Below, piece by piece: positions 14,887 to 63,900 of a DNA stretch of 64,000 nt. The stretch comes from Chondrosia reniformis (Eukaryota > Porifera > Demospongiae > Chondrillida > Chondrillidae), in contig OX359202.1 of the NCBI GenBank assembly GCA_947172415.1, forward strand, positions 3,880,001-3,944,000. The letters run 5' to 3'. The notes beneath the pieces are model-generated. The model made no database searches. It saw nothing but the letters and a program-made list of their open reading frames with translations, and was not told the origin of the DNA. Position numbers and translations under genes: made by a program. Each line of letters starts with the position of its first letter. Positions within the stretch are counted from its first letter, which is position 1.

Positions 14887-14927
14887 TGCCAAACGTTTCG
14901 ACACTGGGGGTCTTCTTCAGTGACTGG
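14887..14927 (-). ncRNA. Degenerate hammerhead in the PLE1 inverted arm
   Basis: Reverse complement of the PLTR ribozyme. The core CTGAAGA and GAAA are kept, but stem II reads GACCC/GTGTC, which adds a mismatch. Probably weaker than the PLTR copies. Confidence 0.6.
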
Positions 14928-20527: not shown

Positions 20528-20835
20528 AACTGAGACTGAGACTGAGACTGTAGCCTCCATCCTCACTTAAAATGAAACCACAAGTGTTTCACTTGTGGTG
20601 GATTTATAAGTGAGGGCAGTCATCCAATTTACGATCTTTGAAGTGTACCACACTGATGAGCCCAAATGAGGGCGAAACAGCTGTCTGTGGTTCTTTGATG
20701 AATTTTTTCCATCTTTGGATGACTGGGAGGCGATCACTGGTTGCCAACTTAATAGGACTTCGTCCCCCAGCCAAGATCAGACTTCGGTCACTTGGCTGGT
20801 ATGGCGAAATATGTTCCAGTGATTATTTCTGATCA
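20528..20835 (+). other. Structured RNA element around a hammerhead ribozyme (retrozyme-like?)
   Basis: An insert of about 300 bp with nested perfect pairings seen directly. CCTCACTT pairs with AAGTGAGG around the hairpin CCACAAGTG/CACTTGTGG. CAGTCATCCAA pairs with TTGGATGACTG (11 bp) and encloses the ribozyme. ATCACTGG pairs with CCAGTGAT around the hairpin CCAGCCAAG/CTTGGCTGG. A TATAAG lies at 20605. The 64-codon frame here looks incidental. Animal retrozymes and PLE ends are known homes of such ribozymes, but the family is not recognised and I find no second copy of the whole unit in the window. Confidence 0.7.
20647..20691 (+). ncRNA. Type I hammerhead ribozyme, textbook fold
   Basis: Stem I ACCACA (20647-20652) pairs with TGTGGT (20686-20691), 6 of 6. 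Core CTGATGA is at 20653-20659. Stem II is GCCC/GGGC with loop AAATGA. GAAA is at 20674-20677. Stem III is the loopless palindrome ACAG/CTGT. The cleavage triplet is GTC with the cut after 20685. Every invariant core base is present. A loopless stem III is usually active as a dimer or in tandem transcripts. Confidence 0.94.
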
Positions 20836-46915: not shown

Positions 46916-48212
46916 CATACATCTTGTTCATACAACTGGTTCATATCTAGTACATGCAACCAGCACATACAGCTAGTACATACAAGTGGTACATATACCT
47001 AGTACATAAGCATATAAATAGTACATATAACTAGTACATACAACTAGTATAATTACACACAACTGGTACATACAACTAGTACATACAATTAGTATCTAGT
47101 ACATACAACTAGCACCTCCCTAGTACCTAATATAACTAGGCCTTAAACCTACAACTAATACATACAACTAGTACATACAATTAGTACATAAAACTAGTTC
47201 AAACAAACAAACAAGTAGTATATAGAACGAATTCCTTCCTAGTTCCTAGTATTACTTGTACCAGAACCTACAACTAGTTAAAAAATCTAGTACATACAAC
47301 TAGTACATACTACTAGTACAAAGCTAGTACATACAACTAGTATAAACATACAACTAGTGTATACATACAACTAGTACACTGGACGTGTGCATACAATTAG
47401 CACGTGCAACTGGTACTTTCAACTAGTACATATAACAAGTACACACACCTACTGCATATAACTAATACATTAACATATAACTAGTATATATGGATAGTAC
47501 ATACACATAGTACATACAACTAGAAACTAGTACATACAACTAGAAACTAATACAAACAACTAGTATATATATTAAACTAGTACAATTAACTAGTACTTAC
47601 AACTGGTATATACATACAACTAGTATATACAACTAGTACATACAAGTAGTACATAAGATTCGTAGGTCCAACAAGTTGATAAATTAGTAACTAGTAAATA
47701 TAATTAGTACATGCGACTAGTACATACAACCAGTACATAGCTAGTACATACAACTAGTATATACATACAACTAGTACACTGAACTTGTACATACAATTAG
47801 CACATGCAACTACTACATACAACTAGTACATATAACTGGTACACACACCTCCTACATATAACTAATACATAAAGATATATCTAGTTCAATTAAATAGTGC
47901 ATCCACATAGTACATAAAACTAGTATATACAACTAGAAACTAGTCCATACAACTAGTATATATATAAAATTATTACATACACCTGGTATATACATACAAC
48001 TAGTACATACAACTAGTACATAAAATTAATATGTACAACTAGTTCATACAACTAGTAACTAGTACATATAACTAGTACATGCGACTAGTACATGCAACTA
48101 GTACATGCAACTGGTACATACAACTAGTTCATAAAACTAGTAATAGTTAGTACAAAGAACTAGTGCATACATCTTGTACACACAATTGGTTCATATCTAT
48201 TACATACAACTA
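46916..48212. repeat. Satellite array, inverted orientation
   Basis: CATACAACTAGTA units with the AACAAACAAGTAG module near 47,205. No other feature. Confidence 0.93.
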
Positions 48213-48712
48213 CAGTGCAGTCCACTCAATTCGAATCCGTTTTTGACGAAATTTTGCCTATTTCAAATAGAACTCCGGTTCCCTGTATAGTCCCAATACA
48301 TCAATTTCGTTGGGAATGTTTGTTTATTTCGTTGAGAATACGGAAGTATTTCAACACAAATAAGCGAGCTCAAAGTCATTTAGGAGGCAATCGTACTTAG
48401 CTAAATCGTCATTAATCATTCTCTGTACCGTGTTATTCTCCAGCTATGCAACGTTCACGTTAACAATCACTTATTCTGGAACGAAAACTAAAGATTATCG
48501 ATCTCTTGGACAACGCTCCATCTGTAAGAAGAAAAAGGACATTGCTACTGCTACTTGGCTGCGTAATTTTCTCTTTTTCGTTATGTTTCAAATGAATATT
48601 TGGTGTTTAGACATCACTTGGCTAATTTGTACTGAATCCTGATAATTCAAAATTCCTAATATTTCAATTTTTTCCTGATTCCCTGGATATTCGAATTAGG
48701 TGGACTGCACTG
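48213..48712. mobile_element. MITE with CAGTGCAGTCCACTCAATTCG ends
   Basis: 500 bp, inverted ends CAGTGCAGTCCAC and GTGGACTGCACTG, flanked by TA. The interior is shared with 43,985-44,419. Frames of 61 and 70 codons inside look incidental. Most likely a Tc1/mariner-pogo-type non-autonomous element. Confidence 0.87.
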
Positions 48713-48847
48713 TAGAACATACAACTAGTACATAGAATTAGTAAATACAATCAGTTAATACAGCTCTGTACATACAAGTAGTTCATATACCTAGTACATA
48801 CACATATATATAGTACATATAAATAGTACGTACAACTAGTATATAAC
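48713..48847. repeat. Satellite array, inverted orientation
   Basis: A short satellite run. Its first bases, TAGAACATACAACTAGTAC, equal those following the partial MITE copy at 44,420, so the two MITEs share right-hand flank. Confidence 0.9.
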
Positions 48848-48950
48848 TAATAGAATAAGGATTCCTTATAACTGCGTCGAACTTATCTTTGGGATGGTAC
48901 ATCCTTCGACTTTTGAGCGTTTAAAAACGCAGTTGGTTTTTTCAATTCTT

Positions 48951-49267
48951 GGTCAAACGTTTCGACCCAGCTATCAGTACTGGAGTATTTCGGTGTCCAC
49001 CTGAAATATGCGCCGAGGTTATGGTAACTACAATCTTGGAATTTCTTCAAAACCGTAGTGTTTCCATTGAATCGGTCTTCATAGTACTACTTGCAAAAGA
49101 CAATATAACTCACTTCTTCAAAGAGGCATTGATTGGGTGCATTGGTGCAGGTGTTCCCATTCCAGAGCTCCCTAAGGAAGGCCTTGGTAATGTTGGAGTG
49201 TTTCTTGATAAGTTTAGCATCATCGAGGAAGACATTTGTAAAGTCCCCCAGTCTTCCTCAGTGACTG
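48951..49267 (-). ncRNA. PLE2 hammerhead interrupted in loop II
   Basis: On the minus strand, CTGAGGA (complement of 49255-49261) and GAAA (complement of 48960-48963) are intact, but the stem-II hairpin that joins them elsewhere is opened by the macro-domain insert. GAC/GTC at the stem base still pair. Stem I GTCA/TGAC is perfect. Hammerheads can tolerate long loop-II insertions, so this could still fold; that is inference. Confidence 0.6.
48967..49251 (+). pseudogene. Captured macro-domain fragment (host-derived)
   Basis: About 94 codons without a stop, reading antisense to PLE2. It begins PAISTGVFRCPPEICAEV, the diphosphate-binding loop and following helix of macro (ADP-ribose-binding) domains. 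ILEFLQN, then SIESVFIVLL and HFFKEAL complete the last strand and helix. About 35 residues of unrecognised linker follow. The first half of the domain (with the DAIVN-type loop) is absent. Flanks are PLE2 on both sides: CGACC at the left, GTCTTCCTCAG at the right. Likely a piece of a multi-macro-domain gene picked up by template switching. It cannot bind ADP-ribose alone. The PLE sequence upstream happens to keep the frame open from a TTG at 48949. Confidence 0.75.
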
Positions 49268-49290
49268 ATGGTTGAGTGGAAGAATTGCCT

Positions 49291-50063
49291 CTATTTATAG
49301 AGGATTTTCCCGCCATTACCACTTCCTGTCATGTGACCCTCAGCAGGATGAGAAAAACAGGAAGTATGAATATTAAATCGTCTCCAGGCTTGATGTAACA
49401 CAATGCCTTGATCTAAATTCATTCTCACCTGACTCTTCTGGATCCTGATGGCTTCTTTGACCCTTCTCCTTTGCCAGTGGGTTTCCCTGTCTGTAATCTT
49501 GGCCTTGTCCCAAGCAATTGAGTGGCCAGTCTTGAGGGAGTGAACAGCTATACCGTTGTTCACATCCCCATCCTGACTGCTCGCTTGTGTTCTGCCAATC
49601 TCACTTTCAGGGTCCTTCCAGTTTCACCAATGTAGACTGCAGAACACTCACCATAGGTGGTTGTGGCTGTTTTGGGTTGGATAAAAGGGTTCTCAGTGAT
49701 CTCTGCTTGGAGAAAATGGTCCGGATACCCATTTTTTTACAGCTTTTATCGATCATCTCACTGAGTCCCTTTATATATGGAATAAAGAGTTTGTGTTTAC
49801 ACTCATCCTCACTCCCCTTTGTCTGCCTTCTCCTGTTGAGCAGTCTGTGAGCCTCCCATTTAGGGTATCCATTAGCTTGAAGTACTCCTTCCAGGTGCTC
49901 CTTTTCTCTTTCCAAGCTACTGGAGTGTGGTCCACAAATCTTTTCGGCTCTGTCTTTGAGACACAGTGCGATACCAGTTTTTACCCTAGGGTGGTGATGA
50001 GAGGTAAAGTGAAGGTACCTGTCTGTGTGTGTTGGTTTCCTATACACAAATGTGTCCAAGATT
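49291..50063 (-). pseudogene. PLE2 reverse transcriptase tail and broken GIY-YIG nuclease
   Basis: Read on the minus strand from VYRKPTHTDRYLHF (end of the reverse transcriptase) through KLFIPYIKGLSEMI and KQRSLRTLLSNPKQPQPP, which parallel PLE1. A deletion of about 33 bp then removes the GVIYQIP strand with the first tyrosine of the GIY-YIG motif and shifts frame. YIGETGR and AEHKRAVRMG follow. A run of four G instead of the five in PLE1 causes a second shift, after which NNGIAVHSLKTGH to the end is open (49291-49563). The nuclease is dead. Confidence 0.85.
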
Positions 50064-50267
50064 ACAGACAGGGAAACCCACTGGCAAAGGAGAAGGGTCA
50101 AAGAAGCCATCAGGATCCAGAAGAGTCAGGTGAGAATGAATTTAGATCAAGGCATTGTGTTACATCAAGCCTGTAGACGATTTAATATTCATACTTCCTG
50201 TTTTTCTCATCCTGCTGAGGGTCACATGACAGGAAGTGGTAATGGCGGGAAAATCCTCTATAAATAG
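50058..50267 (+). pseudogene. Inverted copy of the PLE2 C-terminus
   Basis: The residues TDRETHWQRRR to the C-terminal lysine, on the plus strand, matching the minus-strand body nearly exactly. Part of the inverted tail; not a gene. Confidence 0.85.
50259..50266 (+). promoter_or_regulatory. PLE2 TATA box (inverted arm)
   Basis: TATAAATA within the palindrome CCTCTATAAATAGAGG, 32 bp upstream of the hammerhead start at 50291. A copy in minus orientation lies in the body near 49,300. The spacing matches PLE1. Confidence 0.5.
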
Positions 50268-50290
50268 AGGCAATTCTTCCACTCAACCAT

Positions 50291-50331
50291 CAGTCACTGA
50301 GGAAGACCCCCAGGGTCGAAACGTTTGTCCA
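50291..50331 (+). ncRNA. Hammerhead ribozyme, PLE2 inverted arm
   Basis: Core CTGAGGA (50297-50303), stem II GACCC/GGGTC, GAAA (50318-50321), minimal stem III ACGT, cleavage after GTT (50325). Stem I GTCA/TGTC has one mismatch. Same family as the PLE1 ribozymes. Confidence 0.68.
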
Positions 50332-50396
50332 AGAATTGAAAAAACCAACTGCGTTTTTAAACTAAAAAGTCGAAGGATGTACCATCCCAAAGATAG

Positions 50397-53300
50397 TATA
50401 TAACTAGTACAAACAACTAGTACATACATCCAGCACATACAAATGTAACGAGTACATATAAGTAGTACATACAACTAGTACATACAACTACTACATATAA
50501 ATAGTATATACAACTAGTACATACAACAATTACACAAAACTGGGACATACAATTAGGAAAAATAGTACATACAACTAGTATATACATACAACAATTACAC
50601 ACTACTTATACATTCAACTAGTACAAATAACTACTACATTCGACTAGTATATACAAATAGTATATAGTACATACAACTAGTACATACAACTAGTGCATAC
50701 AATTAGTACACACAAATAGGACATACAGCTAGTAAATATAACTAGTACATACTACTAGTACATAAAACTTGTACATATAACAGGTACATATAACTAGTAC
50801 ATATAAACAGTACACACAACTAGTCTATAAAACTAGTTCATACAACTAGTAAATGTAACAAGTATCTAGTATATACAACTAGAACCTACCTAGAACATAG
50901 TATAAGTAGTACAAGAATCAACAACTGGCACATACACATAGTACACACAACTAGTAATTACATTAGTACATACAACTAGAAACTAGTAACTACTACATAC
51001 CTAGTACATACAATTAGTGCATAGAACTAGTTCAAACAATTAGAACATACAACTACGACACACACCTAGTACATATAACTAGAACTTAAAACTAGTTCAT
51101 ATAACTAGTACATAACTATTACACCCAATTAGTACATAGAACTAGTTCAAACAATTAGAACATACAACTACTGTATACACCTAGTATATACAATTTGTAC
51201 ATACAATTAGTACATACATATAGTACGTACAACTAGTACATACAACTAGACTATACAACTATTAACTAGTACATTCAAAGAGGACATACAAATCGTACTT
51301 GCAACTAATAAATACAACTAGTACCTACAACTAGTATATATAACTGGAACAAGTACATAAAACTAGTACATACAACTACTACTATCAACTAATAACGAGT
51401 ACATACAACTAGTACATGCAACTTTTATATACACTTAGTAGATAAAGTTAGTACATATAACTAGTTCATACAAATAGTAACAAAAACATACAACTAGTAC
51501 ATTGAACTACTCCACATAACTTGTACATATATAAAACTAGTAAATAGTACAATCAGCGAGGACATACAACCGATACTAACAGCTAGCACATACACGTAGT
51601 ACTGACAACTGTTATATACAACTACTACATATAACCAGTACATACATATATAACTAGTATATAAAAATAGTACATACACCTAGTACATAAAACAAGTACA
51701 TACAAAACGTACATATAACTAGTACATACAAATAGTACACACAACTAGAAACTAGTACATACACCTAGTTCATGAAACGTGTGCATAATACTAGAATATA
51801 CAACTTGTATATACAACTAGTACATAGAAACTACATACAACTAGTATATTCATACAACTAGTACGTCCAACTGGTACATAACTAGTGCATACAACTAGTA
51901 AATAGCTAGTATTTACATTTAGTATATACTACAACTAGTACATACAACTAGTACAAACAATTAGTACATACAACTACTAAATATAACTAGTACATACACG
52001 TATACCTAGTAAACGTAAATAGTACATACAACTAGTACATAAAGCTAGTGCATACAACTACTACATATAACTAGTACACACATATAAATACAACTAGTAC
52101 ATACAACTAGTACGTACAACTAGTACACACAACTAGTATCTAGTACATACAACTAGAACACACAACTAGTACAAAGCTAGTAAATACAACTAGTAAATAC
52201 ATACAACTAGTACACAGAACTTGTACATCCAATTAGCACATGCAACTACTACATACAACTAAAACATACAACTAGTACCTAAAACTAATAAATATAGATA
52301 GTTCTGGTAAATACAACTAGTACATACAATTAGTACTTCAACTAGTACATAGAACTAGTACACAAATCTACTACATATAATTAATTCATAAAAATATAAC
52401 TAGTTCAAAGAAATAGTGATTCCACATAGTACATACAACTATTACATAAAACTAGTAAAAACAACTATAAACTAGTACATACAACTAGTAAATATATAAA
52501 ATTAGTACATTTAACTAGTACATACAACTGGTATATACATACAACTAGTACATAGAACTAGTACATAATATAAAAGGTATATACAACTAGTTCTTATAAG
52601 TAGTAACTAGTACATATAACAAGTACATGCGACTAGTACATACAAGTAGTACATACAACTAGTACATATAACTAGTACATACAAATAATACATACAACTA
52701 GTACATATAACTACTACATTCGACTAATAGTATTGAGTACGTAGTACATGCAATTGGTACACAAATAGTACATACAGCTAGTAAATATAACTAGTACACC
52801 CTAAAAGTTCATAAAACTAGTTCACACAACTAGTACATGCAACAAGTATCTCGTGGATACAACTAAAACCTACTTAGGACATAGTATAAGTAGTACAAAA
52901 ATCAATAACTGGTACATACACATAGTACATACAACTAGTACTTACAAATAGTACATACAACTAGAAACTAGTAGCAAGTACATACCTAGTACATACAATT
53001 AGTACATAGAACTACTACATGCACCTAGTACATACAAATAGTACATACAACTAGTACAATTACACACAACTGGTACATACAACTATTACCTACAAATAGG
53101 ATCTACGAATCGTACTTGCAACTAATAAATACTATTAGTACCTACAACTATTACATATAACTGGAACTAGTACATAAAACTAATACATACAACTACTACT
53201 AACAACTAGTAATGAGTACATACAACTAGTACATTGAGCAATTGCACACAACATGTACATGCAACTAGTACATGCAACTTGTACATACAATTAGTAGATA

Positions 53301-55670
53301 AAATTAGTACATATAACTAGTGCATACAAATAGTAACGTAAACATACAACTGGAACATTGAACTTCTACACACAACTTTTACATAAAACAAGTAAATAGT
53401 ACAATCAGCTAGGACATTCAACTGGTACATACCACTAGGACATACAACTGGTATATACCACAAGGTTATATAACTACTTTACAATACAAGTACATACAAG
53501 TAGTTTGTAATACATATAACTATATTGTACCTACCTAGTACCTAGTTTAACTAGTACTAGAACCTACAACTAGTACATACAACTAGTACATACAATTAGT
53601 ACACACAAATAGTACATACGGCTAGTAAATATAACATATAGTACATACACTATTACCTAATTATTATAAATAGTACATACAACTAGTATCTACTTCATAC
53701 AACTAGTGTTTTTCTAGAACCTAGTATAACTAGTACAAGAACCCACCACTTGTACATACAACTAGTACCTACAACTAGAACATACAACCAGTACATAGCT
53801 AGTACATGCAACTAGTATATACATACAACTAGTACATACAACTAGTACCTACAACTAGTAAATATAACTAGTACTAGTCAATAAACTAGTCCATACGACT
53901 AGTACTTGCAATTAGTATATATAGTTAGTACACAATCTATCACATATAACTAATACATAAAAATATAGTTAGTATATATAAATAGTATATATACATAGTA
54001 CATACAAGTTGTTCATACAACTATTAGTACATACAACGAGTACATAAAACTAGGACCTATAACTAGCACACACCTACGACATATTATTAGTACATAAATA
54101 TATAACTAGTACATATTAATAATGCATCCACATAGTATATATAACTAGTACATAAAAGTAGTACATGCAACTAGAAACTGGTACATGCAACTAATATGTA
54201 CCATAAAACTAGTACATTTAACTAGTTCATACAATTATTATATACAAACAACTAGTTCATACAACTAGTATTTACAATTAGTACGTACAACTAGTTGATA
54301 CAACTAGTAACTAGTACGTAAAATTAGTACATTCAACTAGTACATACAACTAGGTCAAACAACTAGGATATATAACTAGTACATATATCCAACTACATAT
54401 AGCTAGTAAATACACATATACCTTGTAACTATAAACAGTACATACAACTAGTACATACAGCTAGTGCATAAAACTAGTATATATAACTAGTTCACAAACA
54501 TATAACCACTACATACATATAACTGGTACTTATAAAAAGTATATACACATAGTACATACAAATAGTACATACAAATAGTACATACATCTACTACATATAA
54601 CTAGTACCTACAACTTGTAAATATAAAGAGAACTACTTCATAAAACTAGTGCATACAACTAGGATATGTAATTAGTACATACAACAAGTACATCCTAACA
54701 ATACACACAAATTGAACATACAACTAGTACATACAACTAGTACATTCAACTAGAACATACAACTAGTACAAACAACTAGGACATATAACTAGTACATACA
54801 CCTACTACATACAACTGTTACATACACATATACCTGGTAATTATAAATAGTACATACAACTAGTACATATAAGTGGTATATAAAACTATTAGAAACTAGT
54901 CCATACAACTAGTATATATATATAACACTACTACATTTAACTAGTACATAAAACTAGTATATACATACAAAGAGTACACACAACTAGTAAATAAAATTAG
55001 TAGGTACAACTAGTTCACACAACTAGTAACTAGTATATATAACTAGTACATGTGACTAGTACATACAACTAGTATATACAACTAGTATATACAACTAGTT
55101 CATAAAACTAGTATTTAGCAAGTACAAAGAACTAGGGCACACATACAACTGGTTCATATCTAGTACATACAACTAGTACATTCAACTATTACATAGAATT
55201 AGAATATACAACCGGCTAATACAGCTAGTACATACAAGTAGTACATATACCTAGTACACACACATATATATAGTACATATAAATAGTACGTACAACTAGT
55301 ACAAACAACTAGTACATACACCCAGTTCATACAAATGTAACGGGTACAATAAAGTAGTACATATAACTAGTACAGACAACTAGTACATATAACTAGTACA
55401 TACACTTTTACCTAATAATTATATATAGTACATACAACTAGTACATACAACTAGTACATACAACTAGTATCTACTACATCCAACTAGTACCTTCCTAGCA
55501 CCTAGTATAACTAGTACAAAAACCTACCACTTATACATACAACTAGTACATACAACTAGAACATACAACCAGTACATAGCTAGTACATCCAACTAGTATA
55601 TACATACAACTAGTTCTTGCAATTAGTACATATAACTAATACACCCATCTACCACATATAAGTAATACAT
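50397..55670. repeat. Satellite array, inverted orientation
   Basis: About 5.3 kb of CATACAACTAGTA units with the same modules as 36.6-43 kb. Several stretches (for example 54,330-55,310 against 42,000-42,960) run in the same module order, so they are copies of one higher-order repeat of at least 1 kb. No gene or transposon is seen. Confidence 0.95.
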
Positions 55671-56042
55671 AAAACAAGTAGTTCGAGTTTAAAAACTCGT
55701 GGGGCTGCCACCCCCAGAATTTACTTGAACTACTTGGCCGCATTGTTGGGCTTTGATATACTATTCTAAATCCTAATGATTGAGGACACTTAAGTGTCCT
55801 GAAAATTACAAATTGTGACGGAAAGGCTTCATTAACTAAAGCTTCCTGAACGCCGCCATTTGCAAAAATGATGTATTGATGTATTAATTAAGTGTTACAA
55901 TAGTTGGTTTGAACTCGTATTATACATATATCGACGTATAAAATGTGTTATAATAGTTACGTATGAACTCGTATTATATATATATTCATTTATATGTATA
56001 TATATATTCGTAACATAAAGCCATGCATAGATCGCTGCAACA
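55671..56042 (-). mobile_element. Hairpin-ended non-autonomous element, copy 3
   Basis: Reverse-complement homologue of 9938-10209 and 18766-19155: CAAGTAGTTCGAG with the CGAGTTTAAAAACTCG hairpin at the left, GGGGCTGCCACCCCC next to it, then the shared interior. TA-rich strings near 55,970-56,010 mark its far end. No ORF. Confidence 0.6.
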
Positions 56043-58232
56043 TATAAATAGGAAATAGATATAACTACTACATATGAATAGTGCATCCATATAGTATATA
56101 TAACCAGTACATAAAACTAGTACATGCAACTAGAATCTAGTACATACAACTGGTTCATACAACTAGTATTTACATTTAGTACGTACAATTAGTTCATACA
56201 ACTAGTAACTAGTACATATAACTAGTTTATAGTTGAATGTACTAGTTGTATGTTCTAATTGTATGCACAAGCTGTATGTACTAGTTGTATGTACTATTCA
56301 TAAATACTAGGTATATGTGTATTTACTAGTTATATGTACCAGTTATATGTATTAGTTTTATGTACTAGTAGTATGTACTAGTTATATTTACTATTTGTAT
56401 GTACTATTTGTGTTTACTAATTGTATGCACTAGTTGTATGTACTAGTTGTAGGTTCTAGTACTAGTTAAACTAGGTAATAGACACTAATTGTATGTACTT
56501 GTTATATAAAGTAGTTATATGACCTAGTTGTATATACCAGTTGTATGTCCTAGTTGTATGTACCAGTTTTATGTCCTAGCTGATTGTACTATTTACTAGT
56601 TTTATGTACAAGTTGTGTGTAGTAGTTCAATGTACTAGTTGTATGTACTCGTTACTAGTTGTTAGTAGTAGTTGTATGTACTAGTTTTATGTACTAGTTC
56701 CAGTTATATGTACTAGTTGTGGGTACTAGTTGTATTTATTAGTTGAAAGTACGATTCGTATGTCCTATTTGCATGTACTAGTTGTATGTGCTAGTTAATA
56801 GTTGTATTAAGTCTAGTTGTATGTACTAGTTGTATGTACTAATTGTATGTGTAATTGTATGTTTATGTACTATTTATATTTTTATGTATTATTTATATGT
56901 GGGAGATATGTGTACTAGTTATATGTACTAATTGCAAGTCCTATTTCTATGTACTAGTTGTATGTACTAGTTGTATGTATATACTAGTTGTATGTACTAG
57001 TTGTATGTATATACTAGTTGTACGTACTAGCTTTGTACTGGTTGTATGTTCGAGTTGCATGTACTAGTTGTATGTACAAGTGGTAGGTTCTCGTACTAGT
57101 TATACTAGGTGCTAAGAAGGTACTAGTTGTATGTAGTAGATACTAGTTGTATGTATATACTATTTACAATTATTAGGTAAAAGTATATGTACTAGTTATA
57201 TGTAGTAGGTGTATTTACTATTTATAAGTCATAGTTGTTTTTCCTAGTTTTGTGTAGTACTTATGTGCTAGTTGAATACACAAGTTGTACGTTCTAGTAT
57301 TAGTATTACAAGGTATGTGTATTTACTAGTTATATGTAGTAGTTGTAGGTACTAGTTATATGTCCTAGCTGTTTGTCATATGTATGGACTATTTGAATTG
57401 ACTAGTTGTATATACTAATTGTATGTACTAGTTGTGGGTACTATTTGGTATGTTCTAGTTGCAAGTAATAATTGTATGTATATAGTAGTTGTTAATATTA
57501 GATTTGTACTTGATGAATATTTAAGTTCTTTGCTCTATATAGTATTATGTACTCGTTCTATGAACTAATAGTATTTACTAGTTTCTAGTTGTATGTACTA
57601 GTTGTAAGTACTAGTTTATGTACTATGTGTATGTACCAGTTGTTGATTCTTGTACTACTTATACTATGTACTAGGTAGGTTCTAGTTGTATGTACTAGAT
57701 ACTTGTTGCATGTACTAGGTGTATGAACTAGTTTTATGAACTAGTTGTATGTACTGTTTATATGTATCAGTTATATGTACCAGTTACATGTACTAGTTTT
57801 ATGTACTAGTAGCATGTAACAGTTATATTTACTAGCTGTATGTCCTATTTGTGTGTACTAATTGTATGCACTAGTTGTATGTACTAGTTGTATGTACTCA
57901 ATACTATTTGTATGTACTAGTCGAATGTAGTAGTTATTTGTACTAGTTGAATGTATAAGTAGTGTGTAATTGTTGTATGTACTAGTTACATGTAGTAGTT
58001 GTGGGTACTATTTGTATGTGCTAATTGTATGTACTAGTTGTATGTACTATCGCCTAATTGTATGTACTAGTTGTATAAATATACCAGTTTTATATACTAG
58101 TTAAATGTACTGATTTTATATATATTCTAGTTGTATCTACTAGTTTCTAGTTTAATTTACTAGTTTCATGTACTAGTTGTATGTACTACATGGATGCACT
58201 ATTTATTTGAACTAGTTATATTTTAGTACAGT
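56043..58232. repeat. Satellite array with orientation switch near 56,220
   Basis: Units run CATACAACTAGTA up to about 56,220 (ACATATAACTAG) and TACTAGTTGTATG afterwards (TTTATAGTTGAATGTACTAG). Directly after the switch, 56,480-56,720 is the reverse complement of a module at about 40,740-40,960, so the same higher-order repeat lies in both orientations. Confidence 0.93.
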
Positions 58233-58625
58233 CAAGTATTATATTTTGTTTTAAATAACTATAGGGGCACCATAGGCGCCCCTATAGTTATTTCAGAAAT
58301 TATGTTAACGTATGGCTTCCTGTTCATAGTCTTATATATATATATATATATCTGTCAAAAAATGGCGGACGTTAGGCTAGCCTTGTTTTCTAGCTTAAAA
58401 TTAGCTTTCTCTTTCTTAGCTGAACAAACAAAATGCATTTACTAATAATATGTAACGTAAAGCTTGCGCAAAAACGTTTTCCACGAAATATGGCCTTGAA
58501 AAATTGATAACCATTAAGAGTCAATCAAAAATCGGTTCACCGGATATCTATGGGAATGAGCCAAGTAGTTTGAGTTTACTTAGGGGCGCCTGGCGCCCTA
58601 CGAGTTTTTAAACTCGAAATACTTG
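58233..58625 (+). mobile_element. Hairpin-ended element, related family member
   Basis: 393 bp starting CAAGTATT and ending AATACTTG, with T on both outer sides. The right end shares CGAGTTTTTAAACTCGAAATACTTG with the other three, but the interior differs. Near the left end, AAATAACTATAGGGGC pairs perfectly with GCCCCTATAGTTATTT around a 9-base loop. A GGGGCGCC/GGCGCCCT stretch precedes the right hairpin. A (TA)n run is at about 58,334. T-T insertion plus a 3' hairpin and short asymmetric inverted ends would fit Helentron-type elements. Confidence 0.62.
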
Positions 58626-60622
58626 TTTTATGTATTAGTTATATGTGTTATGTGCGTGTACTAGTTTATGTACTAGTTGAGAATACTAGTTGTAAGAAGT
58701 AGTTGTATGTACTAGAACCAGCTATATTTTCTAGTTTTAGGTACTAGTTGTATGTATTAGTTGTATGTAGTAGTTGTATGTACTAATTGAATGTACAAGT
58801 TCTGTGTATTAATTGTATGTATATACTAGTTGTATGTACTTGTTGTACCTACTAGTTGTATGTACTAGTTGTATTTACTATTTGTATGTTCTAATTGTAA
58901 GTGTTTCTATTAGTTATTTGTACTAGTTGCAGCGCTAGCTGTATGTACTAGTTGCATGTACTATTTACATTTACTAGGTATACGTGCATGTAGTAGTTAT
59001 ATGTAGTAGGTTTATGTACTAGGTATATGTCCTAATTGCATGTACTAATTGCATGCACTATATAGTTGTATGTACTAGTTGTATATACTAGTCGCATGTA
59101 CTAATTAAATTTACTAGTTACAAATTTTATGAACTAGTTGTACTTAGGAAGTTTATTTACTACTTGTATGTACTAGTTGTATGTACTATTCACATATTCT
59201 AGTTATATGCTTATGTATAAGTTCTATGTAGTGGGTGTGTGTACTCGTTATATGCAGTAGGTGTGTGTACTTGTTATATGTACTAGTTGAAAGTACCAGT
59301 TGTACGTGCTAATTGTATGCACACGTCCTGTGTACTAGTTGTATGTATACACTAGTTGTATGTTTATACTAGTTGTATGTACTAGCTTTGTACTAGTTGT
59401 ATGTATTAGTTGTATGTACTAGTTTTTTGAATTAGTTGTAGATTCTGGTACAAATTATACTAGCAACCACAAAGGAACTCGTTCTGTATACTACTTGTGT
59501 TGTTTGTTTGAACTAGTTTTATGTACTAATTGTATGTATTAGTTGTATGTACCCGTTGTATGTACTTGTTGTATGTACTAATACTAGTTGTATGTTCAAG
59601 TTGTAGGTGGTGGTTGTATGTACTAATTTTATGTACTACTTGGATGTACTAATTGTATGTACTAGTTGTATGTACTAGATATGAACAAGTTGTATGTACA
59701 AGATATAGGCACTAGTTGTTTGTACTAGCAATATACTAGTTTTATGAAGTAGTTGCATGTACTAGTTGTATGTCATAGTCTCATGTACTAGTTATATGTA
59801 CTAATTACTAGTTGTGTGAACTAGCTGAACCTACTAATTTTATGTACTAGTTTTATGTACTCCTTGTATGTATATATTACTAGTTTTATGTACTAGTTAA
59901 ATGTACTAGTGTTAAATATATACTAGTTGCATGGACTAGTTTCTAGTTGTATGTACAGTTATTATGTACCCGTTCTATGTACTAGTTGTATGTACTATTT
60001 ATAAATATTAGGTATATGTGTATGTACTAGTTGTATGTAGTAGGTGCATGTCCTAGTTATATGTCCTATATATTTGTTTGTACTAGTTGTATGGTTTAGT
60101 TGAATGTATTAGTTGTATGTACTATTTGCGTGTACTGTTAGGATGTACTGGTTGTATGTACTAATTGCATGTAGTAGTTGTATGCACAAGTTTTATGAAG
60201 TAGTTCTATTTATATTTACAAGTTGTACGTACTAGTTATATGTAGCAGATGTATGTACTATTTGTATCTACTATTTGTATGTACTATGTGTGTGTACTAT
60301 TTTTAAGTACCAGTTATATGTGTGTAATAGTTATATGTTTGTAAACTAGTTATATATACTAGTTGTATGCACTAGCTGTATGTACTAGTTGTATGTACTG
60401 TTTATAATTACAAGGTAAATGTGTATTTACTAGTTATAAGTAGTTGGTGTATGTACTAGTTATATATCCTAGTTGTTTTTCCTAGTTGTATGTACTAGTT
60501 GAATGTACTAGTTTTAGAACTAGTTGTACGTAGTAATTGTAAATACTAGTTGTACGAACTAGTTGGATGTACTAGTTTTAGACCTAGTTGTGTGAACCAG
60601 TCGTATGTACTAGTTGCATGTA
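58626..60622. repeat. Satellite array, forward orientation
   Basis: TACTAGTTGTATG units; the module order from about 59,670 parallels that at about 345-1300. No gene is seen. Confidence 0.94.
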
Positions 60623-60965
60623 CAGTAGAACCTCGGTTATCCGAACCTCAATTAACCGGCTGCTCGGATTATCCGGCCTTAGATTCCGTTCCTAATTAAC
60701 GTCCATCGTTTAATAGTGTGTACGAGTTTACGACAATGGCTAGCTGTAGCGATGTCTCCTTGAAAAGGGAGTGTAGTTGTGCTACTTTAAAGACCAAACT
60801 AACTTATTTGAACCAACCACTCGACAAAATCAACCGAAATACTACTTGTTCCTCGCTTGAAAATGTCGATCGAGGCGGCGTTTTCTTTTGCTTCACACAT
60901 CTGGTCGTTTCAGTTATCCGGACATGGTCCGGTCCCGTTGGGGCCGGATAAGCGAGGGTCCACTG
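60623..60965 (+). mobile_element. pogo/Tigger-type deletion derivative, second copy
   Basis: 343 bp, left end CAGTAGAACCTCGGTTATCC identical to 21297, right end more diverged (GCCGGATAAGCGAGGGTCC then ACTG), TA on both sides. The first 60 bp match the other copy closely; the interior differs, so the two are separate deletion products. Confidence 0.88.
60718..60951 (+). pseudogene. Possible Tigger transposase N-terminal remnant
   Basis: A 77-codon frame. After MASCSDVSLKRE comes TLKTKLTYLNQ, which weakly recalls the start of the CENP-B-type helix-turn-helix of Tigger transposases (compare RKRKRL and ESKIVILE in the other copy). The remainder runs into the right inverted end and is not protein-like. 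Low confidence. Confidence 0.4.
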
Positions 60966-63900
60966 TACTGGTTATATGTACTAGCTAATAGTTGTGTGAA
61001 CTAGTTGTACTACCTAATTGTAAATACTAGTTGTATGAACTAGTTGTTTGTATATAATTGTAGTATTAACTAGTTAAATTCGCTAGTTTTATGTATATAT
61101 AAGTTGTATATATGTACTGGTTTCTAGTTGCATGTACTAGTTTTATGTACTAGATATATATACTATATGGACGCACTATTCATATGTACTAGTTATATAT
61201 TTATATACTAATTATATGTAGTAGGTGTGTACTAGTTATAGGTCCTAGTTTTATGTACTCAGTCTATATACTAGTAGTTGTGTGAACTACTTGTATGTAC
61301 TATGTTTATGTACTATTTATATGTACTAGTTTTATTTTTCTGTATTATATAGTTATATGTAATAGATGTGTGTACTAGTGATATGTACTAATTGCAAGTA
61401 CTAGTTGTATGTACTAATTGTATGTGTATACTAGTTTTATGTACTAGCTATGTACTGGTTGGATGTTCTAGTTGTATGTACTAGTTGTATGTACAAGTGG
61501 TAGGTTCTTGTACTAGTTATATTAAATGCTAAGAATATACTAGTTGTATGTACTATTTATAATTATTTGGAAAAACTGTATGTACTAGTTATATGTAGTA
61601 TATAGGTGTATGTACTATTTATATGTTCTAGTTGTCTTTCCTAGTTATGTGTAGTACTTATGTACTAGTTGAATAAACAATTTGTACGTTCTAGCATTAT
61701 ATACTCATTCTGTGAGCTAGTTGTATATACTAGTTTCTAGTTGTATGTACTAGTTGTGTGTACTAGTTTTAGGTACTAGTTTTAAGTACTAGTTGTATAT
61801 ACTATTTATAATTACAAGGTATGTGTATTTACTAGTTATATGTAGTATGTGTATGTACTAATTATATGTCCTAGCTGTTTGTCGTAGTTGTATGGACTAG
61901 TTGAATGTACTAGTTGTATGTACTGGTTGCATGTAGTAGTTTTATGTACTAATTGTTTGTACTAGTTGTATTCACTAGTTTTAGGTACTAGTCCTAGTTA
62001 TCTTTAGTAGTTGTAGGTACTAGCTGAATGTAAAAGTTGTATGTACTAATTGTTTGTTGTATTTGTATGTACAAGTTGTATGTACTAGTTATGTACCACT
62101 TGTATAGACTAGTTGCATGCATATACTAGTTATAAATAAATGCAATCCACTAGTTGTATATATAAGTTCTACTTTCTGGTGTTATGTACTCGTTCTATGA
62201 ACTAGTCATATGTACTAGTTTACAGTTGTATGTTTTAGTTGTATGTACAAATTGTATGCATGAGCTGTATGTACTAGTTGACTGTACCATTCATAATTAC
62301 TAGGTATATGTGTATTTACTAGTTATATGTAGTAGATTTATGTACTAGTTATCTGGCCTAGTTGTTTGTCCTAGTTGTATGGACTAGTTTAATGTACTAG
62401 GTGTATGTACTAGTTGTATGTGCTAGTCGCATGTACCAGTTATACGTACTAGTTACTAGTTGTATGAACTAGTTGTACCTATTAATTTTATGTACTAGTT
62501 GTATGTACTAGTTGAATGTAAATACCAGTAATATGTACTAATTAAAAGTACTAATTTTATATATATACTAGTTGTATGTACTAGTTTCTGGTTGTATTTA
62601 CAAGTTTTATGTACTAGTTGTATGTACTATGTGGATGCACTATTTATTTGAACTAGTTATATTTTTATGTATTAGTTATATGTAGTAGGTGTTTTTTCTA
62701 GTTATACAAGTTGTATGCACTAACTGTATGTACTAGTTGTATGTACTATTTATATTTTCTAGGTATATGCATATGTACTCGTTATATGTAGTAGGTGTAT
62801 GTACTAGTTATATGTCCTAGTTGTTTGTGCTAGTTGTACTTACGAGTTGAATGGACTAGTTGTATGTTCAAGTATTATGTACTCGTTCTGTGAATTAGTT
62901 GTATGTACTAGTTTCTAGTTGTATATACTAGTTGTATGTACTTTTTGTATGTACTAGTTTTATGTACTAGGTGTATATGACTATTTTTATATAGTAGTTT
63001 TATGTGTATGTACTGGTTATATGTAGTAGTTGTATGTACCAGTTGTTTGTGCTAGTTTCCTGTACTTGTTGTATGTGCTAGCTAATTGTAGGTTCTAGTA
63101 CCAGTTATAGTATGTACTAAGTAGGAAATAGTTGTTTGTCCTAGTTCTATGTACTAGTATTAGTTATATTTACCAGATGTAAGTATTGGTTGTATGCATT
63201 AGTTGGATGTAGTAGTTGTATGTACTATTTGTATGTACTATGTGCATGTACTATTTATAAGTACCAGTTATATGTATGTAGTAGCTATATGTTTGTGAAC
63301 TAGTTATATATACTAGTTGTATGCACTAGCTGTATGTACTAGTTGTATGTACTATTTATAATTACAAGGTATATGTGTATTTACTAGTTATAAGTAGTTG
63401 GTGTATGTACTAGTTATATATCCTAGTTGTTTGTCCTAGTTGTATGTACTAGTTGTATGTACTAATTGTAAATACTAGTTGTTTGTATATAAAAGTTGTA
63501 TGAACAAGTTAAATGTCCTGGTTATATATACTATGTGGATGCACTATTCATATTTACTAGTTATATATTTATATACTAATTATATGTAGTAAGTGTGTAG
63601 GTCCTAGTTTTATGTACTCGTTCTATGTACTAGTAGTTGTATGAACTACCTCTATGTACTAAGTTTATGTATTATTTATATGTACTAGTTATATTTTTCT
63701 GTTTTAGTTATATATGGTAGATTGTGTATTAGTTATATGTACTAATTACAAGTACTAGTTGTATGTACTAGTGGTATGTACAAGTGCTAGGTTCTTGTAC
63801 TAGTTATACTAGGTGCAAGGAAGGTACTACTTGTATGTACTAGATACTAGTTGTGTGTACTAGTACATACAACTGTATGTACTAGTGGTATGTACTATTT

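Follow-up and report, generated by a model that had tools for sequence, protein, structure and literature searches.

A fragment of a host macro-domain gene within the hairpin of a Penelope-like element in the sponge Chondrosia reniformis

How did a piece of host coding sequence come to lie inside a hairpin of a Penelope-like element (PLE)? The window, i.e., the whole stretch of DNA that was analyzed, is 64,000 nucleotides of Chondrosia reniformis chromosome 14 (GCA_947172415.1, contig OX359202.1, positions 3,880,001 to 3,944,000). It contains an element, PLE2, with two inverted arms, and the left arm holds part of a macro-domain gene. An earlier sequence-only reading had proposed that the fragment was captured at a hammerhead ribozyme by template switching at structured RNA. 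The features of the locus, in window coordinates, are:

48838-48849, no strand: left target-site duplication AGTATATAACTA, a 12-nt match to 50395-50406
48850-48968, minus strand: outer part of the PLE2 left arm, comprising the 3' hairpin half and a tail of the long class (inverted repeats I2 and I3)
48967-49245, plus strand: 279-bp fragment of the macro-domain host gene, antisense to the PLE (279/279 identity to C3:3674146-3674424)
49246-49250, no strand: 5-nt filler CCCCA, the reverse complement of the missing loop TGGGG (junction comparison)
49251-50059, minus strand: inner part of the PLE2 left arm, with the 5' half of the hairpin, the 3' UTR and the C-terminal coding region
50056-50394, plus strand: PLE2 right arm with the short tail (arm and tail comparison)
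50292-50326, plus strand: undisturbed hammerhead-like hairpin in the right arm (CTGAGGA, GACCC/GGGTC stem, GAAA)
50395-50406, no strand: right target-site duplication AGTATATAACTA, a 12-nt match to 48838-48849

The whole twin-armed element spans about 48850-50394 and is embedded in a 13-bp satellite. The arms are inverted repeats; 252 nt of the inner part of the left arm are 100% complementary to the right arm, two outer blocks match over 50 nt at 98% and over 34 nt at 97%, and the arms are joined with a 4-nt overlap at 50056-50059. The 12-nt match of the target-site duplication is weak when taken alone, because it lies inside the satellite. The window copy of PLE2 is truncated and its 58-aa piece had no Pfam match. 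A sister copy (L054:434-1948) was found to carry RVT_1 (2.9e-11) and GIY-YIG (1.1e-4) in one frame, while the frame of a second sister copy (L055) matched RVT_1 only. By these predicted domains PLE2 is an endonuclease-bearing Penelope-like element, with reverse transcriptase and GIY-YIG in a single frame, and the window element has the inverted pseudo-LTR arms, the tail on one of them and the short target duplication of such elements.

Nineteen paired PLE2 insertions were found, and two of them, with a duplication below 8 nt, were set aside. Of the other 17, with a duplication of 8 nt or more, 16 have one long and one short tail, the window element included. The sole exception, L026, belongs to a nested cluster, where its arms may have been paired wrongly. 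This pattern suggests strand-specific start sites. With one long tail, one short tail and a 12-bp duplication, the outer anatomy of the window element is therefore normal. The count quantifies the optional tail mentioned in the accessible text of PMC3846280; the rule itself is not new.

Some variation was observed around the element. At 50328 in the right arm the triplet is GTC, whereas it is GAC at 48953 and at nearly all examined sites, and the tail of the right arm differs too. The two arms in the window may stem from different RNAs, despite the identical inner 252 nt. The degenerate 13-bp satellite CATACAACTAGTA occupies window positions 46916-63785 with a strand switch near 56.06-56.23 kb, and several PLE2 copies elsewhere also end in such satellite-type sequence, which may be a favoured PLE2 target. 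A further element at 48213-48712 has the inverted ends CAGTGCAGTCCAC and TA on both sides; we take it to be, probably, a Tc1/mariner-like miniature transposon.

A search of the genome sequence identified the donor of the insert. The fragment at 48967-49245 (279 bp, 93 codons) is identical at 279 of 279 positions to C3:3674146-3674424 on chromosome 3, within locus L009 (3147-3425). Ten places matching the insert were found in one haplotype, with an initial pass that skips very common words. Besides the window itself, these are eight full-length matches and a partial one (160 bp, 81%). The full-length places outside the window, the eighth of which sits in L011, differ from the insert by 0, 1, 1, 2, 2, 3, 10, and 15 bases, so C3:3674146-3674424 is the only perfect match. 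All eight have the flanking bases of the gene itself, and none has a PLE2 context. The fragment had also been spoken of as a transduction; among the nine full-length places, PLE2 context was found only in the window, and there is thus no sign of spread with the element. The capture event is recent.

An error of assembly that fused the donor to PLE sequence was considered here, as the satellite setting and inverted arms identical over 252 nt are hard to assemble. The assembly was made from HiFi reads with a reported QV of 69.8 (PMC12181767, in the part available), the junctions carry biological signatures, and the donor lies on a different chromosome. We regard such an error as extremely improbable. 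The host fragment in PLE2 is confirmed as real, and its borders are sharp.

The donor stretch lies within a stop-to-stop frame of 386 codons in L009. This reading frame matched Pfam Macro over the whole model (E 5e-26), and with a perfect donor in the same genome the identification as a host macro-domain fragment held up. The insert alone gave only 0.14 against Pfam Macro, which falls short of the curated threshold, as no more than the final 19 model positions (100-118 of 118) are present in it. The description of the insert as the second half of a macro domain was therefore correct as to macro sequence but not as to extent; it comprises the final stretch of one macro domain, then a linker, and then what is probably the start of a further such domain, as judged from the gene sequence. 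A transcript-free reading of the gene predicts the insert to be wholly exonic. The sequence-only reading had called for a comparison with exon borders, and the borders of the insert do not coincide with those of L009: the left one falls within an exon, and the right one comes 3 bases ahead of the putative 5' splice site AAT/gtacgt. Exon capture by splicing was ruled out on account of these two borders.

The exonic position bears on a patch of cDNA or RNA from the donor mRNA, made by any cellular reverse transcriptase and captured at a break in a PLE copy. The insert would be entirely exonic by the gene reading, as this explanation expects, and spliced mRNA was captured at breaks in mouse zygotes, in one case in reversed orientation (PMC4516963, in the part available). 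An exonic origin by itself is nevertheless weak evidence; the insert lies inside one exon and no intron is crossed, so an RNA and a DNA source look alike. We consider such a patch very improbable.

The next intron of the donor gene bears on another route. A relic of a related PLE was observed in this intron about 115-325 bp downstream of the donor fragment, in L009 and in its paralogue L012. Homology between this relic and PLE2 could have guided recombination, the two pairing and bringing the loci together. When compared with the PLE2 hairpin-tail, the L012 intron scored 35 on one strand, above all 300 shuffles (maximum 28), and 25 on the other strand, a score reached by 7 of 300 shuffles; the relic is thus two-armed. 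In L009, the actual donor, the relic was detected on one strand only (score 25, reached by 3 of 300 shuffles), and the other strand was at chance (215 of 300 shuffles). BLAST of the relic gave E 0.003 for L012 and 0.058 for L009. Against this route, the insert contains no intron base, and homologous copying from the relic can therefore not alone yield the observed borders. We judge it very improbable.

The junctions were resolved to the base. On the window strand the pre-insertion site reads CGACCC-TGGGG-GTCTTCC, and the present site reads CGACCC-[AGC...AAAGTC]-CCCCA-GTCTTCC. At the left junction the insert and the left flank overlap by 2 bp, CC being common to target and donor. At the right junction the filler CCCCA is located between the end of the donor sequence and the right flank. 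The only loss from the target is the loop, which was returned inverted, and both target flanks are preserved to the base except for this 5-nt flip. Neither a poly(A) nor a duplication around the insert itself was found in the window sequence. The insert had been estimated at about 282 bp, and 282 nt is indeed the gap between the hairpin halves in the left arm; the donor match, however, is 279 bp, with CCCCA as an extra before the right flank. The orientation antisense to the element and the position exactly at the hairpin, with the two halves flanking the insert, were as first read, and so was the undisturbed state of the other arm (50292-50326).

Whereas the gap is 282 nt in the left arm of the window element, it is 5-6 nt in 52 of 53 distinct PLE2 arms (arms with a 5' half that reaches the hairpin, those with identical context counted once). 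The arms were found with an uninterrupted query, by a pattern search or mostly from a list of intact 32-mers; the sample therefore favours intact arms, and it demonstrates the normal state and not the rate of insertion. Genome-wide, the 15-nt 5' half of the hairpin occurs 213 times, with 128 exact copies of the intact 32-mer that holds both the CTGAGGA and the GAAA box, and the remaining 85 were read in part. At nine places the base after AGTCACTGAGGAAGAC (the 5' half and one C) is not C. Eight of these continue into a variant hairpin, several of them resembling other PLE families, and the window alone has an interruption. The other PLE2 copies examined thus lack the insert, and an ancient component of PLE2 was ruled out, the insert being absent from 52 of 53 distinct arms and eight of the nine variant places being uninterrupted. 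The insert disrupts the hairpin and has no evident function within the element, and it looks like a one-off.

The hairpin had been named a hammerhead. Both core boxes, CTGAGGA and GAAA, were found around a five-pair stem in PLE2. No Rfam hammerhead (covariance model RF00163) was found in 48850-50450 at E up to 10, and none in ten sister loci at E up to 1. A hammerhead cleavage site as a rule has an NUH triplet. At the cleavage position of 53 intact sites (sites with identical surroundings counted once, a few from variant families) the triplet was GAC in 51, GAA in one and GTC in one, the latter being the right arm in the window, and the NUH triplet is missing in 52 of the 53. The five-pair hairpin appears in the predicted fold, while the stability of the region was no better than that of shuffles (z-scores of -0.74 for 80 nt and 0.12 for 43 nt). 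The name hammerhead amounts to a motif resemblance, and for this sponge PLE family it refers to the motif boxes only; the PLE2 hairpin is probably a degenerate, hammerhead-like structure.

Elsewhere in the window a type I hammerhead at 20647-20691 passes the Rfam gathering score (34.6 bits vs. 34) and is unlike the PLE2 hairpin. Hammerhead-like sites of a CTGAAGA variant were seen at 14891, 15670, and 18282, one on the minus and two on the plus strand, and they look like members of a second PLE family. Hammerhead ribozymes of Penelope-like elements were reportedly described by Cervera and De la Pena in 2014. The PLE2 hairpin is like those treated in the accessible part of PMC11167929 in having the CTGAGGA and GAAA boxes around stem II and in adjoining the tail, and it differs from them in lacking an Rfam match and in having GAC as the triplet in 51 of 53 sites. 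The ribozyme of a lizard Penelope was seen to cleave only when protein was added (same source and part), so by analogy the PLE2 hairpin could still be active.

Based on the junctions, the antisense orientation and the kept flanks, we favour templated-insertion repair, which fits these features better than switching by a reverse transcriptase. We hold it somewhat more probable than its negation that a single PLE2 insertion in the chromosome 14 satellite was patched by this repair with a 279-bp copy from the chromosome 3 macro-domain gene. The long-tailed arm would have broken at or near the stem-II-like hairpin (GACCC/GGGTC and loop), this break being inferred, either in integrated DNA or during the repair of integration intermediates. 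One end would then have primed short synthesis on a nearby template of the opposite strand, giving the flipped CCCCA, and would next have copied the donor far away, either from its DNA or from a cDNA already present. The second end would have been joined through 1-2 bases. Overall, this would be a "class 2" templated sequence insertion. The insert duplicates a distant locus whose original is still in place (insert on chromosome 14, donor on chromosome 3, 279/279), and its end-joining junctions, with a 2-bp overlap to the left and a 5-nt inverted filler to the right, are without poly(A) or duplication, as in that class. A templated insertion at a break explains the kept ends, the small overlaps, the short local inversion and the distant patch. 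These data are one event, which carries no statistics, and come with an incomplete census of PLE2 arms that favours intact ones.

Against repair, a finished genome displays no break, and the position in a hairpin suits the stalling of a polymerase or a reverse transcriptase too. The PLE reverse transcriptase could have copied the left arm from the tail, reached the hairpin about 120 nt in, moved to another RNA for 277-279 nt and come back to the far side of the hairpin; we see this as possible, though unlikely. As a specific claim, a stall of the PLE2 reverse transcriptase in the stem-II-like hairpin, shortly after its start at the tail, followed by a switch to a host transcript and back, is distinctly unlikely. 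The insert position is the hairpin, as expected from switching. In vitro, the protein of a lizard PLE cut and extended both target strands and started copying inside the RNA (PMC11167929, in the part available), which fits twin arms with outward tails. For Penelope, jumps between templates and the use of antisense templates were proposed in 2013 (PMC3846280, in the part available), and an antisense PLE template would make the donor orientation fit a sense mRNA. A sense PLE template, as used in vitro, demands an antisense donor RNA; a jump from sense PLE RNA to the donor mRNA would leave the donor in PLE sense, and the observed antisense orientation thus disfavours switching. Switching also requires two jumps, the second landing within five bases of the point of departure, the flipped CCCCA is not predicted, and the hairpin region folds no better than shuffles. 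That 52 of 53 distinct arms crossed the hairpin cleanly is a weak point against switching, as the sample favours intact arms. Template switching at structured RNA, as put forward in the sequence-only reading, is accordingly a possible but not the favoured explanation.

Two further points run counter to templated-insertion repair. The filler CCCCA is C-rich and has five bases only, the chance of an exact 5-mer being 1 in 1024 with equal base odds, and capture of host DNA by Penelope elements is on record and was attributed to element replication in the available text of PMC3846280. If the reverse transcriptase did stall and switch, host sequence would have a natural way into Penelope elements through the hairpin loop, and the flipped loop would be the footprint of the switch.

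The event is clean in that the donor, the empty site and both junctions have all been placed at single-base resolution. It serves as a worked example of how host coding sequence can enter a retroelement arm, with no sign so far that the element has passed it on. Additional captures at this loop, should they turn up, would make the way in which Penelope elements acquire host DNA open to testing.

Both capture of host DNA by Penelope elements (PMC3846280, in the part available) and templated insertions are already in print. Titles and the starts of abstracts on Penelope, in a collection without most subscription journals, mentioned no capture that was recognised as lying inside the hairpin. In the rotifer Adineta vaga, host DNA was captured by Penelope elements according to the accessible text of PMC3846280. 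These elements are like PLE2 in that endonuclease-bearing copies hold host sequence and in that they have inverted pseudo-LTRs, an optional tail on one of them and short target duplications. The captured sequences in A. vaga are whole genes between the pseudo-LTRs, or spacers of 0.9-1.5 kb before the 3' one, whereas in PLE2 a 279-bp internal piece of an exon lies within the hairpin of one arm.

Further parallels come from templated sequence insertions, in the accessible parts of the reports. Class 2 insertions are described with microdeletion, microhomology and added nucleotides (PMC5110952), and templated insertions at yeast breaks with 0-5 bp of microhomology and short foldback inversions, mostly below 14 bp (PMC11724301). 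Like the insertions in these two reports and in PMC4516963, the PLE2 insert is a short stretch copied from a distant locus, the donor staying intact, with a few bases of microhomology, with a short local inversion and with neither poly(A) nor a duplication around it. Those insertions were mapped as polymorphisms or at induced breaks, the organisms being human, yeast and mouse, whereas the present one lies in the arm of a sponge retroelement and its break is inferred.
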